Below, one piece after another: positions 6,271 to 21,478 of a DNA stretch of 36,036 nucleotides. A program made the position numbers and the translations under genes. The first letter of the stretch is position 1. Every line of letters begins with the position of its first letter. The stretch spans positions 1 through 36,036 of the forward strand of contig JAJEIH010000020.1 in assembly GCA_022827685.1 (NCBI GenBank), written 5' to 3'. Origin of the DNA: Alphaproteobacteria bacterium. Its GTDB lineage: Bacteria; Pseudomonadota; Alphaproteobacteria; Bin95. The notes below the pieces were generated by a model. That model made no database searches and was not told the DNA's origin. It worked only from the letters and a program-made list of their open reading frames with translations.

Positions 6271-6990
6271 TCAGCGCAGCCACTCGCAACAGATAACGCC
6301 ATTTGCCGAGACGCCGGACTGACAACATTTCGAGACGCCGACGCGGTCTCTCCGCTCTCCACTTTTCCCCCATCCCGCCTGATCGCTAGGGAAAACATTG
6401 GGGTGTCGCGCCATCGCCGGAACGATCTGAACTGTCCCGAATTTCCTTGCCGCTTCAGAACGGACCTGGTTGAACAGCATCGTGTCGGTGCCGGCATGCG
6501 GGTTGGAAAATGCTGAAAGGGCGATACGCGCTCCGCGCCGATCAATCAGAAAAGCGCAGGCCCCGACGCTCTGTTGCTCCAGACGCTGCAACATGCGCCC
6601 GGTCGGCGTTCGTCCGGAGGGTCCCCAAAGCAGTCGGGACTGGTCCTGGCTGCAGTACAGCCGGACGATGTGTGCGCCAGCGGGCCACCAGTCCACCCCT
6701 TCCAGCAGCGTCGGCGTGTCGGCGGCCAGTTCAACATCATCTTCCAGCATGAGTGCGGCCGGGGCACCTGAACCAAGAAGTTCAATCAACGCCTTAGTCA
6801 AACTAAGGATTCCAGCCTGTCCGCCGAGACTGTAGTGCCAGATTTTCCCCCATTGCTCCGATGCGTGCAGCGATCGAGCATCTACTGCCGGGATGCGTGT
6901 TGCCTCTATGCCAAGCCGGTCGAATTGTTCGGACATGAACGCCCAGCGGTCCGGACGACGATCAAGATTGATGACATAGACAGGCAGCAT
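6271..6990 (-). CDS. Glycosyltransferase family 25 (LPS/LOS type)
   Basis: A 239-aa cytoplasmic glycosyltransferase of the LgtB/Lex2B-like family 25, which adds sugars to lipooligosaccharide or other surface glycans. The opening MLPVYVINLDRRPDRW (1-16) is diagnostic, and the acidic metal site MLEDDVEL at 81-88 follows the usual hydrophobic strand. The ATG at 6990 is chosen over an in-frame TTG at 7005, because the conserved structured leader ends exactly at this ATG. Base composition is lower in GC than the flanking genes and no sugar-gene cluster surrounds it, so it looks like a transferred islet. Expression is probably controlled by the leader RNA at 6991-7159. Confidence 0.9.
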   Translation of the reverse strand: MLPVYVINLDRRPDRWAFMSEQFDRLGIEATRIPAVDARSLHASEQWGKIWHYSLGGQAGILSLTKALIELLGSGAPAALMLEDDVELAADTPTLLEGVDWWPAGAHIVRLYCSQDQSRLLWGPSGRTPTGRMLQRLEQQSVGACAFLIDRRGARIALSAFSNPHAGTDTMLFNQVRSEAARKFGTVQIVPAMARHPNVFPSDQAGWGKSGERRDRVGVSKCCQSGVSANGVICCEWLR

Positions 6991-7159
6991 GACGGACCCC
7001 TGCAAGGCCCGTCGCTGGTGCCGGGCCGTTGCAAACCGACATGGGTGTCCATGAGGCCCCGCCTATTCACCATGGCTCGGGGAGCTACCCCTTGCCCGGA
7101 ACAGGTTGTTCTATTCAGCGGGCGACCCGGCGTATGCCGAGAACCCATGTCGGTTTGCA
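6991..7159 (-). ncRNA. Structured leader RNA, copy 1 (candidate riboswitch-like element)
   Basis: A 169-nt leader ending at the glycosyltransferase start codon. The 17-nt arms at 7143-7159 and 7030-7046 are perfect reverse complements and enclose exactly 96 nt. The enclosed core shares near-identical blocks with copy 2: CGCCCGCTGAATAGAACA, GGGGTAGCTCC and GAATAGGCGGGG. These can fold as a CGCC/GGCG stem, an internal loop with GAATA on both sides, a short stem, and a GGGG-UAGC-UCCC apical hairpin. Downstream, hairpin A (7006-7027) and hairpin B (6994-7010) share the GGGCC strand and so exclude each other. Hairpin B covers the AGGGG ribosome site. The ligand or trigger is unknown. Confidence 0.85.
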
Positions 7160-7165
7160 GGAGTC

Positions 7166-7194
7166 AGTCTGCTTTGCGAAAAGTCTGGATGCAA
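7166..7194 (-). promoter_or_regulatory. Candidate promoter shared with leader copy 2
   Basis: TTGCAT (7189-7194) and CAGACT (7166-7171) are separated by 17 bases, followed six bases later by the first base of the leader helix. The same boxes, spacing and following GACTCC occur before copy 2. The -10 box is poor for a housekeeping sigma factor, so an alternative sigma or an activator is possible. The position is inferred from conservation and not mapped. Confidence 0.5.
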
Positions 7195-7279
7195 GCAAGG
7201 TATGGTCGGGTTGACGCCGATCAGCATGACCGTCACGCAGATCATGCGGTTTATCGCAAGAGCGCGGCAGCCGCGCCGG

Positions 7280-8521
7280 TTACATCACCCGCCACCAGGG
7301 CGCGGCAAGAACATCCGGCGCGAGCCATTCGAGTTGCGGGCCCGTATGCAGCAGCAAACCCGGCCGGACGCCTGCGCCGTATTCGGCGCGGAAGCTGCGG
7401 AGATGGCGGGCGTCTCTCAGTCGGGGCCGGTTCGACGCCTTTACCTCTATCGGAAGCAGGCGCCCTTCGGCCTCGACAACGAAATCCACCTCCTCGCCGG
7501 CCGCAGTTCGCCAGTGGAGAATTTCGGCCTGGCCAAGGCGGGCGTCCCGCCATGCCATCAGGTCCGCCACCACGAGATTCTCAAGATGCGCGCCCCCCGG
7601 TTCCGCGCCGCCCGCGAGGTAAAGCGCGAGCCCGGTGTCGCCCCAGTAGAGTTTCGGCGCCTTGATGAGCCGCTTGGTGCGGTTCACGGCATAAGCGGGG
7701 ATTTGCGCCAGCAGATAGGAAGTCTCCAGCAGGTTGAGATAGCGCCGCACCGTAGGCTGCGGCAGCGCGATGTCTCGGCCGAGTTCGGTCTGGTTGACGG
7801 TCTGGCCGGTCTTGAGCGCGGCCGCGCGCATCAGGCGGCGGAATTCGACGAGGGCCGAAATCGCGGACAGGTCCTGGAGGTCGCGCTCCAGATAGGTGCG
7901 CACATAGCCGTCGAACCAGACGGTCCGCGCATCGTCCTGCGCCAGATGGACGGCCGGCGTCGGAAACCCGCCGCTCCTTGCCAGTCCGCGCCAGTCCGCC
8001 GGCTCGTCCGGTTGGGCGGCAAGCAGGTCGAGCCAACGGTCCTCCGGCGTCCCGATCAACTCTTCCCAGAGGCCGCCCGCGCCCATTCCCGACCGTTCCC
8101 GCCGGGTCATGGGACGAAGCGTCAGATAGCTGGCGCGCCCCGCAAGCGATTCCGAGACACGGTGCATGAGAAGCAGATTCGCCGAGCCGGTCAGCAGGAA
8201 GCGCCCCGGCCGCCGGTCCCGGTCGATGGCCAGCTTCACCGCATGGAGCAGGTCCGGCGCCCGCTGCACTTCGTCCAGCGCCATCGGACCGGGCCCGTCC
8301 AGAAGCGATTCCGGGTCGCGGCGGGCAGCATCCAGAATATCCGTGTCGTCGAGGGAGCGGTAGCGCCGCCCTTCCGGCTCGAGTCCTTGCGCGAGGACGG
8401 TCTTGCCGGTCTGGCGCGCGCCTGTGAGCACGACGGCCGGCATGACGGCAAGACGGTCCTCGAGCGTTTTCGCCACGAGACGCGGAAGCGGGGCTTCGAC
8501 CATATGGTGAATGATATCCAT
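7280..8521 (-). CDS. AAA ATPase with DUF4143 C-terminal domain
   Basis: A 413-aa stand-alone ATPase. Walker A GARQTGKT is at 34-41, Walker B-like MALDEVQRAP near 79-88, and the sensor-like LLTGSANLLLM near 113-123. The C-terminal DUF4143 region carries a nuclease-like E...D...ExK pattern (ENLVVADL, EVDFVV, PIEVKAS). Members are widespread, often on genomic islands, and their role is not established; DNA-related or toxin-antitoxin-like functions have been suggested. No good ribosome site precedes the ATG at 8521, and an ATG six codons later is an alternative. It lies next to the glycosyltransferase islet and may share its origin. Confidence 0.9.
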   Translation of the reverse strand: MDIIHHMVEAPLPRLVAKTLEDRLAVMPAVVLTGARQTGKTVLAQGLEPEGRRYRSLDDTDILDAARRDPESLLDGPGPMALDEVQRAPDLLHAVKLAIDRDRRPGRFLLTGSANLLLMHRVSESLAGRASYLTLRPMTRRERSGMGAGGLWEELIGTPEDRWLDLLAAQPDEPADWRGLARSGGFPTPAVHLAQDDARTVWFDGYVRTYLERDLQDLSAISALVEFRRLMRAAALKTGQTVNQTELGRDIALPQPTVRRYLNLLETSYLLAQIPAYAVNRTKRLIKAPKLYWGDTGLALYLAGGAEPGGAHLENLVVADLMAWRDARLGQAEILHWRTAAGEEVDFVVEAEGRLLPIEVKASNRPRLRDARHLRSFRAEYGAGVRPGLLLHTGPQLEWLAPDVLAAPWWRVM

Positions 8522-18475: not shown

Positions 18476-19933
18476 CTATGAGGCCGATCCCTCGCAAAGC
18501 GGAAAGGTGGTCGGCGGGACGTGCTCATAGGGCAGGAGGGTGAGGTCGGCGGGGCCCCAGTCGGGCGTGTCCAGGATCACGATGGCCGTGCAGAGCGGCT
18601 CATAGACCTCGCGGAAATGGGTCTTGGAGCGCAGCAGGATGTAACGGAAATCCTCCGGCGAGAGGCCGAATTGCGTGAAGCAGTCCAGGTCGATGGCGGA
18701 GTAGTTGGCCGAAACGAGCGACACCGTCACCGCGCCGGTGCGGATGAGCGCGGAGGGCCCGAGCGATATTTCGGTCCCCGTCTTGAGCGGGCCGGTGATG
18801 CGGAAGCGCTTCTCGCCGGCCTCCAGCACCTCCACATCGGCCTCCAGGGGGCCGCCCGCCTTCTCCGACGACCCGCCGCCGAAGGCCAGCCTGAGGCGCG
18901 CGCCCGCCCCGGCGGCCATGCAGGCCGCCGCCGCCTCCGGGTCGCAGACGAAAGGCGCATAGGCGGGGCCCATGCCGCGCGCCAGCATCTCGCGGAGCGT
19001 CCAGGTGCTGTCGTTCATCCGGTCGGCATGTTCCAGCAGGCAGACCGGGCCGCCCTCCATTGTCGCGGCCTTGTCCAGCCCGTCGCCGACGCCGTGGACA
19101 AGCTCGCGCTTGAGCAGCCGGAAGCGGTTGAGGCTGCATTGCCCGGAGAGATCGTCCGCCGCGCGCCGGGCAAGCGCCTCGTCGCCGTCCGCCACGGTGA
19201 CGACGCTCATGCCGGTGTCGGGCGTATCCGCATAGGCGAAGCCGCAGAAGACCGACACGTCGAGCAGCGCCTTCTCGCGCGCCTGCCAGGCCGCCGCCTG
19301 CCGCTTGATGTCGGCGAGCGGGCGCAGCGCCGTCGCCGTGAAGATACTCGGCAGCATGATACCGGGCTTCGCGAGCGCCATGACCGGGCGGACGCGGCCC
19401 CGCATCGCGGCCAGCAGGATGCGCGCCGCGCGCCGGCCGGTCTCGGCCATATCGACATGCGGGCTGGAACGGTAGCCGGTCACGACATCGGCCGCCTCGA
19501 CGACCCCGGGCCCGAGATTGCCGTGCAGGTCCATGGCGCAGGCGACGGGAAAATCCGGCCCGGCGGCGGCGCGGATGGCCGCCAGCACATGCGCGTCCGC
19601 CTTGCGGTTGGCCGGCGTGGCGAGTGCGCCGTGAAGGTGGAGCAACAGCCCGTCGAGCCCGTCAAGGCCCGCCGTGATCTCCTCCGTGTAGCGCGCCAGC
19701 GCCTCCTCGCTGGCCGACGCCGCCGCGCCCGCGCCGACCGCCACGATGCCCTGGATGGACGCGCCCTCCGCCTCGCAGATGTCGATGAACCCGCCGAGAG
19801 CGGTGTTCGCGCCCCGGTTCCCGGCGATGACGTCCGGCCCGCGCAGCGCCCCCCGCTCGAAGACATCGACGCCCGTGGTCTCCGGCAGGAAGGTGACGGA
19901 TTCGAGGCTGAACTCGGCAATCCCGAGGCGCAT
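18476..19933 (-). CDS. M81 family metallopeptidase (MlrC-like)
   Basis: A 485-aa protein of the family that includes MlrC, which cleaves linearised microcystin peptides; most members have unknown substrates. The N-terminal DUF1485 half carries the metal-site motifs LLLHLHGAL (96-104), DLHGN (135-139) and YRSSPHVDMAETG (154-166). The C-terminal half has the conserved GGGSSEKAGGPL region. No signal peptide is seen. Its promoter region abuts leader RNA copy 2 but is transcribed in the opposite direction. Confidence 0.92.
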   Translation of the reverse strand: MRLGIAEFSLESVTFLPETTGVDVFERGALRGPDVIAGNRGANTALGGFIDICEAEGASIQGIVAVGAGAAASASEEALARYTEEITAGLDGLDGLLLHLHGALATPANRKADAHVLAAIRAAAGPDFPVACAMDLHGNLGPGVVEAADVVTGYRSSPHVDMAETGRRAARILLAAMRGRVRPVMALAKPGIMLPSIFTATALRPLADIKRQAAAWQAREKALLDVSVFCGFAYADTPDTGMSVVTVADGDEALARRAADDLSGQCSLNRFRLLKRELVHGVGDGLDKAATMEGGPVCLLEHADRMNDSTWTLREMLARGMGPAYAPFVCDPEAAAACMAAGAGARLRLAFGGGSSEKAGGPLEADVEVLEAGEKRFRITGPLKTGTEISLGPSALIRTGAVTVSLVSANYSAIDLDCFTQFGLSPEDFRYILLRSKTHFREVYEPLCTAIVILDTPDWGPADLTLLPYEHVPPTTFPLCEGSAS

Positions 19934-20007
19934 GGCAACACCTGCTGCAAAAAGTGATCGACGACGATCCTATCGATCATCGCGGCGTTAACAGCATCAT
20001 GCCGCGC

Positions 20008-20036
20008 TTGCATCAATGGTTTTCAGAACGCAGACT
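20008..20036 (+). promoter_or_regulatory. Candidate promoter shared with leader copy 1
   Basis: TTGCAT (20008-20013) and CAGACT (20031-20036) are 17 bases apart, and the first base of the leader helix (20043) lies six bases after the second box. Copy 1 has identical boxes, spacing and offset, so both transcripts would begin with a base-paired 5' end. This is inferred from conservation only. Confidence 0.5.
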
Positions 20037-20042
20037 GACTCC

Positions 20043-20213
20043 GCCATCAACAACGAGGCATCCCGCTCCGTCGGGCCGCCCGCTGAATAGAACAGCCTGA
20101 ACCCGGCACGGGGTAGCTCCCTGCGCCCGGCGAATAGGCGGGGTCTCTCACGATAGCCTCGTGTGTTGATGGCAACGGCCCGACACCAGTGTCGGGCCTT
20201 GCGGAGGCCCGTC
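20043..20213 (+). ncRNA. Structured leader RNA, copy 2 (candidate riboswitch-like element)
   Basis: A 171-nt leader ending at the ATG of the next gene. The closing arms GCCATCAACAACGAGGC (20043-20059) and GCCTCGTGTGTTGATGGC (20156-20173) pair over 17 bp with one bulged base and enclose 96 nt, the same as copy 1, although the arm sequences are unrelated between copies. The core shares the CGCC/GGCG stem, two GAATA motifs facing each other, and the GGGG-UAGC-UCCC hairpin. Hairpin A (20177-20198, 9 bp) and hairpin B (20194-20210, GGGCCT with AGGCCC) compete for one strand. Hairpin B contains the GGAGG ribosome site (20203-20207). Confidence 0.87.
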
Positions 20214-20546
20214 ATGGCTAACGATCCTGACACCCGGTACCAGCAGAACGAGCTAGCACTTGCGGTTCTGGTCGCGAAAATCCTGATTCTGGAGAAGGCC
20301 GTCGCGCTTCTATTCGGCGCAGGCTTCTATCAGCACCGCGACCCCGTAAGCGGCCTTGCCGCTTACGAGGAGCTTCTTGGTTTGCGGGTATCGGAGGTGT
20401 GCGAATCCCTTCCATCGAGCGTGCGCCCGGACGCTGAGGAGGCTGCCCGGGCAACCTTGAAGACGTTGTTCGACGAAGGTCAGCTCTTTGTTGACCAGAT
20501 GCTGAGGGAGCGTGCGAAACAGCACTCTTCAACACGTCCGGAATAG
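20214..20546 (+). CDS. Hypothetical protein, 110 aa, behind leader copy 2
   Basis: No family recognised. The protein is mostly helical by appearance, with a hydrophobic stretch (LALAVLVAKILILEKAVALLFGAG-like region, about 14-37) that could be a membrane or coiled-coil helix, and an acidic C-terminal half. The ATG at 20214 follows GGAGG by six bases. A longer frame starting at 20163 would translate the structured leader and was rejected. It is 14 bases upstream of the ATP-grasp gene, so the two are probably co-expressed under the leader. Confidence 0.75.
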   Translation: MANDPDTRYQQNELALAVLVAKILILEKAVALLFGAGFYQHRDPVSGLAAYEELLGLRVSEVCESLPSSVRPDAEEAARATLKTLFDEGQLFVDQMLRERAKQHSSTRPE

Positions 20547-20560
20547 GGCGAACCACCGGC

Positions 20561-21478
20561 ATGTGGTGGAGAAGGAGGGTTCACAAGGGGATTTCCCGGT
20601 TGAAGCGATGGGCGCCTACGGGACCGAGGATCGACCGGTGCCTGAACTATCTCCATGCATGGAACCGGCTGCCATACCGCCCCAACCTTCTATCTCCGCG
20701 CACCTTCAACGAACTGATCCTGGCGAGCAAACGCGACTACAGGGGCGACATGGCCCTCGCGCGCCGTGTGACCGACAAGATCGAGTTCAAGGAGTGGCTG
20801 CGGGAAAGGCCGGAGTGGCGCCCGCTCATCGTGCCTACCCTGGATGTCTTCGACTTTCCGCATGAGTTCGAGGATCGGATCTTCGAGCGCGATACGGTCC
20901 TGAAGCCGACACACACGAGCGGGGCGTATCTGCTTATCGAAGAGAGGCGGCGGCTGTCCAAACGGGAAATGCAGGCGTTCAGACGCTGGCACAGGCAGGA
21001 TCACTACCGGCGCATGAGAGAGCCGAACTACAAGGGGGCGAAGAAGAGATTTCTCCTTGAACCGCTGTTGCGAGACGAAGACGGGCACCCGGCGAAAGAC
21101 TACAAGTTCTTCATGATCGGCGACCGACCGGTCATGATCCTGTTTGGCCGGGGCCGTCACACCAACCACACCGAACAGTTCTATTCTCCAGACTGGGAAC
21201 TGCTCGATTTCAGGCGCGGCGTCACGCGATACCCGGACCCATATCCCCGGCCGGCCTCGCTGGACGCGGCGCTCAAGACGGCGTCGGATCTGGCGAGGCC
21301 CTTCCCGCTCTGCCGGATCGACCTGTATCTCCTGCCTGACGGAGTGATCAAGGCCGGCGAGGTAACATTCTTTCCAGGCGAGGGCATTGTGCCGTTCACG
21401 CCGCCAGAAGCCGATTTCGAGATGGGCCGGATCGCGCGGGCGCTGATTGCCCGCCAAGGCATCTCAAAGTCGAACTGA
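20561..21478 (+). CDS. TupA-like ATP-grasp protein (surface polysaccharide type)
   Basis: A 305-aa ATP-grasp ligase-like protein resembling TupA of teichuronopeptide synthesis and related capsule or O-antigen genes. The opening SPRTFNELI (45-53), TDKIEFKEWL (71-80), the nucleotide-binding VLKPTHTSG (113-121), a DYKFFMIGDRPV block near 180-191, and the terminal RIDLYLLPDGVIKAGEVTFFPGEG-like region supply the expected lysines and acidic metal ligands. Such proteins probably attach amino acids or similar groups to glycans. GC content is lower than in neighbours and no glycan cluster surrounds it, suggesting transfer. Confidence 0.85.
   Translation: MWWRRRVHKGISRLKRWAPTGPRIDRCLNYLHAWNRLPYRPNLLSPRTFNELILASKRDYRGDMALARRVTDKIEFKEWLRERPEWRPLIVPTLDVFDFPHEFEDRIFERDTVLKPTHTSGAYLLIEERRRLSKREMQAFRRWHRQDHYRRMREPNYKGAKKRFLLEPLLRDEDGHPAKDYKFFMIGDRPVMILFGRGRHTNHTEQFYSPDWELLDFRRGVTRYPDPYPRPASLDAALKTASDLARPFPLCRIDLYLLPDGVIKAGEVTFFPGEGIVPFTPPEADFEMGRIARALIARQGISKSN

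Follow-up and report, generated by a model that had tools for sequence, protein, structure and literature searches.

The small RNA family sRNA-Xcc1 (RF02221) is reportedly labeled trans-acting in the title of Chen 2011. In Xanthomonas it is a discrete 88-nt RNA, as seen by Northern blotting and end mapping (PMC2996969). It has been located in integron cassettes upstream of symE (PMC12444791), and Xylella carries seven copies (PMC12189769). The EDL933 member was represented by 40,293 reads with almost no ribosome coverage in RNA-seq and RIBO-seq data (PMC5331693). The open-licence literature on sRNA-Xcc1 bases its readings on trans targets predicted for plant pathogens. C4 (RF01695) is an RNA in the antirepressor leader that is internally complementary to a downstream stretch. 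In Gifsy-1, one promoter gives rise to the terminated short RNA IsrK (RF01394) and to a read-through mRNA for the antirepressor AnrP (PMC4825925).

The window analyzed here is the whole stretch of 36,036 nucleotides. A preliminary description had reported that a promoter-plus-leader RNA module occurs in it twice, with the same promoter boxes at the same spacing and a common 3' part that ends at the ATG. All of this was confirmed. The boxes and their 17-nt spacer are identical in both copies, and the shared sequence runs up to the start codons at 6990-6988 (-) and 20214-20216 (+). A blastn search found 8 copies in the bacterium's own genome (4.3 Mb, 167 contigs), and the similarity is far beyond chance since the second window copy was matched with an E-value of 7e-28. 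The parts of the two copies and the genes that follow them are listed below.

Copy 2, 20008-20213 (+)
20008-20036 (+): promoter, TTGCAT (-35) at 20008-20013, 17-nt spacer, CAGACT (-10) at 20031-20036; predicted start about 20043
20043-20059 (+): P1a, 5' strand of the outer helix, with locus-specific sequence; P1 duplex -29.9 kcal/mol
20070-20078 (+): PKa, GTCGGGCCG, partner of PKb
20079-20142 (+): core with P2, internal loop, P3 and P4; contains the loop GAAUAGAACA, which faces GAAUA
20079-20084/20137-20142 (+): P2
20095-20097/20129-20131 (+): P3
20105-20127 (+): P4 hairpin
20156-20173 (+): P1b, 3' strand of the outer helix
20176-20184 (+): PKb, CGGCCCGAC; the conserved RNA ends here
20177-20198 (+): 3' hairpin B, GGCCCGACA-ccag-UGUCGGGCC; -16.9 kcal/mol, overlaps PKb
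20203-20207 (+): Shine-Dalgarno sequence GGAGG
20214-20546 (+): first gene, 110-aa orphan protein with a homologue behind another copy (L005)
20561-21478 (+): second gene, TupA-like ATP-grasp protein (PF14305, E 1.3e-23)
Copy 1, 7194-6991 (-)
7166-7194 (-): promoter, TTGCAT at 7194-7189, 17-nt spacer, CAGACT at 7171-7166; predicted start about 7159
7141-7158 (-): P1a; P1 duplex -31.4 kcal/mol
7123-7131 (-): PKa, GCCGGGTCG
7058-7122 (-): core with P2, GAAUA loops, P3 and P4
7031-7050 (-): P1b
7020-7028 (-): PKb, CGGCCCGGC
7006-7027 (-): 3' hairpin B; -12.2 kcal/mol, overlaps PKb
7001-6997 (-): Shine-Dalgarno-like AGGGG
6271-6990 (-): family 25 glycosyltransferase (GT25; PF01755, E 3.7e-8)

The two copies stand before unrelated genes, which supports the earlier view that the leader was not carried along by a gene duplication. 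Each copy had also been said to drive a surface-type gene. This holds for copy 1, as GT25 is clearly an enzyme of surface glycans; copy 2 is followed first by the gene for the 110-aa orphan, which a Pfam search assigned to no family, and then by that for the TupA-like protein. By Pfam, none of these window genes (GT25, the orphan, TupA) is an antirepressor. Homology between the copies begins about 45 bp 5' of the -35 box and not at the box itself. This common upstream sequence lies within 19950-20010 and 7200-7260, and in copy 2 it holds an imperfect palindrome, GCGGC...GCCGC, that could be an operator. The neighbors on the upstream side are a DUF4143 AAA ATPase on the same strand as copy 1 (7280-8521, -) and a divergent M81/MlrC-type metallopeptidase at copy 2 (18476-19933, -).

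The module holds up as a genuine structured RNA, located at the 5' ends of two mRNAs. Its outer helix, P1, has 15-20 bp (17-20 bp in the window copies) and was perfect or near perfect in all 33 of the 33 copies first collected. The P1 sequences of these copies are unrelated to one another and contain 40 G-U pairs on the gene strand. The two P1 strands pair at -29.5 kcal/mol with their own partners and at -16.1 kcal/mol when swapped between genomes, a mean cost of about 13. A pseudoknot of 9 bp is formed by PKa (GUCGGGYCG), within P1, and PKb (CGRCCCGRC), just 3' of P1; RNAalifold recovered this pairing unprompted. The core inside P1 runs from P2 through an internal loop, in which GAAUAnAACA faces GAAUA, to P3 and P4. 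P2 covaries clearly, with the variants CCCGC/GCGGG, CCCAC/GUGGG, CUCGC/GCGAG, and CCUGC/GCAGG. Among 58 distinct copies, 97.9% of cells were paired and 71 two-sided changes were counted, compared to 10.3 in shuffled and at most 9 in slid alignments, with the alignment fitted to the model and so biased in its favor. An unfitted alignment of 22 copies gave 96.0% paired cells and 5 two-sided changes versus 0.5. The fold of copy 2 lies 4.9 SD below that of its shuffles.

The core had at first not been recognized as any described riboswitch or ribozyme, and an Rfam match to a known class had been named as counting against the idea. An Rfam scan of the window copies gave no family match. However, a low-threshold Rfam scan of diverse copies placed RF02221 at 7 of 19 linked intermediate loci, at exactly the same site. 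The best of these reached 43.5 bits (E 8e-5), under the RF02221 gathering cut-off of 53 bits. The outer helix of the Rfam model corresponds to PKa/PKb in the matched intermediates. In the reverse test, a model built from window-type copies only (R1) found 13 of 20 RF02221-type loci in the right positions at E-values of 0.002 or less (best 2e-7), although E-values of this custom model are rough. Because intermediates connect the two groups and detection is reciprocal, window-type copies and RF02221 form one superfamily. The kind of Rfam match named as counting against the preliminary description was thus obtained in part, by way of the intermediates. As judged from these sequence comparisons, the window RNA is a long-P1 variant and distant relative of sRNA-Xcc1 and not an unknown class. 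Both have PKa/PKb as an outer helix, P2, the AAUAnAA/GAAUA loop, and P3 in the same register. The window copies differ by having P1a right beside PKa and an additional P4 hairpin, and window-type copies differ by the exported-protein genes downstream. P1 is absent from the Rfam model, where the family is filed as an sRNA.

Alphaproteobacterial genomes were scanned, a check proposed in the preliminary description, and window-type hits were found in 25 of the 385 sampled, representing 16 genera. The window's genus carries 3-12 copies in 8/8 species, and the family's six other genomes gave no hits with the window-type model. When named genomes were searched by pattern, copies were found in Nitrospirillum, Niveispirillum, Caulobacter, Brevundimonas, Phenylobacterium, Plastoroseomonas, and Acetobacteraceae, as well as in four MAGs, at least three of them labeled Gammaproteobacteria. 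Niveispirillum lacus and Brevundimonas sp. SH203 are culturable bacteria among these carriers. Copies are scattered and patchy across genomes. Viral contigs contained no exact window-type patterns, and blastn of window-type copies against plasmids gave no matches. One locus of the bacterium's own genome (L007 1501-1863; C125:5089-5451, -) has two RNA copies in tandem upstream of a CGGGGGG lipoprotein, with about 85 nt between them; a simple leader does not account for this layout.

Window-type copies stand in front of genes. A Shine-Dalgarno sequence and a start codon were found on the same strand 19-58 nt past PKb in 85 of the 109 copies with enough flank, compared to 12% at random positions and 17/109 in the antisense direction. 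In the window copies this distance is 29 nt, within a limit of about 90 nt. The downstream gene preference that had been proposed is real. Downstream genes were chosen by codon-usage scoring, and an export signal was defined as a lipobox, a CGGG lipoprotein start, or a hydrophobic signal-like N-terminus. Such signals occurred in 42 of 69 first genes within 75 nt and in 99 of 840 further long ORFs from these regions, an enrichment of about five-fold with gene starts and signals called by simple scripts and some false ORFs in the background. The Pfam families of the downstream proteins include GT25 (8), outer-membrane barrels (4), CsgG, TupA, RTX, staphylococcal-nuclease-like, rhodanese, and others. 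No antirepressor families were found by Pfam among 63 window-type downstream proteins. The bacterium appears to use the RNA mainly before genes for cell-surface or exported proteins. At twelve loci (L107, L109, L117, L130, L135, L142, L156, L176, L178, L179, L098, L104), the downstream lipoprotein has a glycine run right after the lipid cysteine (CGGGGGG), and most proteins of this type have no Pfam family. Two other downstream genes (L119, L157) encode weak TbpB-like barrels.

The RF02221-type copies also stand in front of genes. RF02221 matches with E-values of 0.01 or less were present in 43 of 289 alphaproteobacterial genomes. A Shine-Dalgarno sequence and start codon lie directly downstream in 49 of 57 copies (56 from alphaproteobacterial genomes and one from the EDL933 prophage), compared to 10% at random positions and 3/57 in antisense. 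The antirepressor Ant follows 41 nt after the end of the RNA in the E. coli EDL933 prophage. The canonical RF02221 pattern was found in at least 120 IMG/VR stretches, and 66 of the 79 usable viral copies precede a gene (random 11.5%, antisense 2/79). Genes downstream of the viral copies are overwhelmingly of antirepressor types. The 65 viral downstream proteins carry P22_AR_C (24), AntA (16), KilA-N (15), Bro-N (10), Rha (8), ORF6N (7), and P22_AR_N (5), some of them combined, with related phages counted separately so that the events are not independent. Vibrio phage VHML has the corresponding stretch immediately in front of a Rha-like antirepressor. A blastn search of phages with one alphaproteobacterial RF02221 copy gave no matches.

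These findings suggest that each copy is probably a 5' leader RNA or attenuator, with competition between the pseudoknot and a 3' hairpin, and that it was co-opted from phage antirepressor control. Transcription would start at P1, and the RNA would fold with a P1 unique to its locus, the core of P2, loop, P3, and P4 within it, and the PKa-PKb pseudoknot across it. PKb doubles as the 5' arm of a 3' hairpin that adjoins the ribosome-binding site. The pseudoknot and hairpin B are mutually exclusive because both need PKb. Taken alone, the pseudoknot helix has -18.6 and -18.0 kcal/mol in the window copies, against the hairpin B values listed above. One fold would yield a short RNA, elsewhere the "sRNA", and the alternative fold would permit gene expression; we infer both that the folds switch and which of them is "on". 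In phages the device would serve antirepressor genes, and in the window's lineage it would have been taken over for mainly exported proteins. The phage origin is presumed; breadth of occurrence, and not a tree, is the basis for saying which way the device passed between phage and host. IsrK resembles this layout in its two transcripts from one promoter, but it belongs to another family, and its mechanism involves an upstream ORF, with the short RNA binding in trans.

The 3' hairpins differ between the two groups. RF02221-type copies have a terminator-like 3' hairpin with a T-rich tail in 22 of 57 cases, compared to 2% of shuffles, and the 5' arm overlaps PKb in 29 of 34 hairpins, usually starting inside PKb. 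A terminated leader is consistent with the 88-nt Xanthomonas RNA (PMC2996969). In window-type copies, a T-rich tail follows 14 of 110 3' hairpins versus 4% in shuffled sequence, a frequency that does not establish termination there, and 3' hairpins as such are also common in shuffled GC-rich sequence (46% versus 78% observed). Hairpin B of the window copies has no U tract, and its competition with the pseudoknot is clear in the sequence. Since the T tract is missing in the window's lineage, control may act at translation or via another factor, and the output of the window's GC-rich copies would be translational or weakly transcriptional. A hairpin just 5' of PKa, which would compete with the pseudoknot, was suggestive in RF02221-type copies (-5.8 with own strands versus -3.7 with swapped strands). 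Own and swapped strands were indistinguishable in window-type copies, and we do not claim this hairpin as a conserved element.

The main rival explanation is a C4-like antisense RNA, in which termination or processing ahead of PKa sets P1a free as a small RNA, which then pairs with P1b on that mRNA to control the gene downstream. Of the 79 phage copies, 66 have an intrinsic terminator separating P1a from PKa (1.8% in shuffles), which counts against a cis reading there. Because of this second terminator, phage P1a could be a separate C4-like antisense RNA; it is complementary to P1b at -26.5 with its own partner versus -19.5 when swapped. As in the C4 system, antirepressor genes lie downstream, and C4 and isrK RNAs are present in some of the same phage loci. 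C4 differs in structure and sequence, however, and its Rfam model matched neither the window nor the RF02221 copies. In window-type copies there is no such terminator and a gap of only about 10 nt between P1a and PKa, so that cis pairing is the natural fold. We consider C4-like release unlikely.

The module could also yield an independent sRNA that acts in trans, which is the published view of sRNA-Xcc1, and the adjacent gene would then be coincidental or secondary. The discrete Xanthomonas RNA and the scarcely translated EDL933 RNA speak for it. It does not fit the Shine-Dalgarno sequence and start codon that follow 78-86% of copies, across three sets, at a short and fixed spacing. Nor would one shared trans target be a likely fit, because P1 is strictly locus-specific. 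This reading is improbable. The same can be said, slightly more firmly, of a metabolite riboswitch serving a surface regulon, for instance one that senses the second messenger c-di-GMP. A genome can carry numerous c-di-GMP riboswitches (GEMM) in front of surface genes of diverse kinds, and the multi-copy leaders before diverse exported proteins resemble such regulons; the conserved GAAUA loops, being unpaired, might bind a ligand. In contrast to GEMM, the window RNA has no Rfam match, and phage antirepressors would be an odd metabolite target. c-di-GMP itself is unlikely because 18 of 26 RNA-bearing genomes lack a GGDEF domain, namely 4/4 tested in the window's genus (G000, G001, G004, G005) and 14 other carriers. 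A mobile DNA repeat (attC-like or an IS end) that lies before genes incidentally would suit the patchy distribution and the integron cassettes of sRNA-Xcc1 (PMC12444791), but it was rejected as highly improbable given the nearly fixed orientation to the gene (66 versus 2 in phages), a P1 with G-U wobbles on the gene strand that never recurs as a fixed end, and compensatory changes throughout.

The leader reading gives an orphan sRNA family a testable job. By position, sRNA-Xcc1 is first of all a leader; in phages the gene that it precedes is nearly always an antirepressor, and genes of this class decide on induction and superinfection. The structural model of P1, pseudoknot, and competing terminator is missing from Rfam. 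A phage-type control device appears to have been re-used by bacteria for surface proteins. More broadly, and as a tentative proposal, RF02221 might be a widespread switchable mRNA leader that evolved for phage antirepressors and was domesticated by several alphaproteobacterial lineages, with a private P1 per locus, into a regulon of surface lipoproteins, outer-membrane proteins, and glycan enzymes.

Three further observations concern individual loci. At L190, L194, L200, and L205 (genomes G188 and G283, one genus), the downstream translation repeats "VYQKLYDT" with no clear gene, possibly as part of another repeat family. RF02221-type copies number 13 in a small genome of 1.4 Mb (G106; L209, L240-L250), and several of them precede genes for related short proteins, about 90-120 aa in length. 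In two phage antirepressor regions (L295 2422-3753; L315 843-1672), isrK, C4, and sRNA-Xcc1 stand in series, which looks as though every antirepressor module came with a leader RNA of its own.
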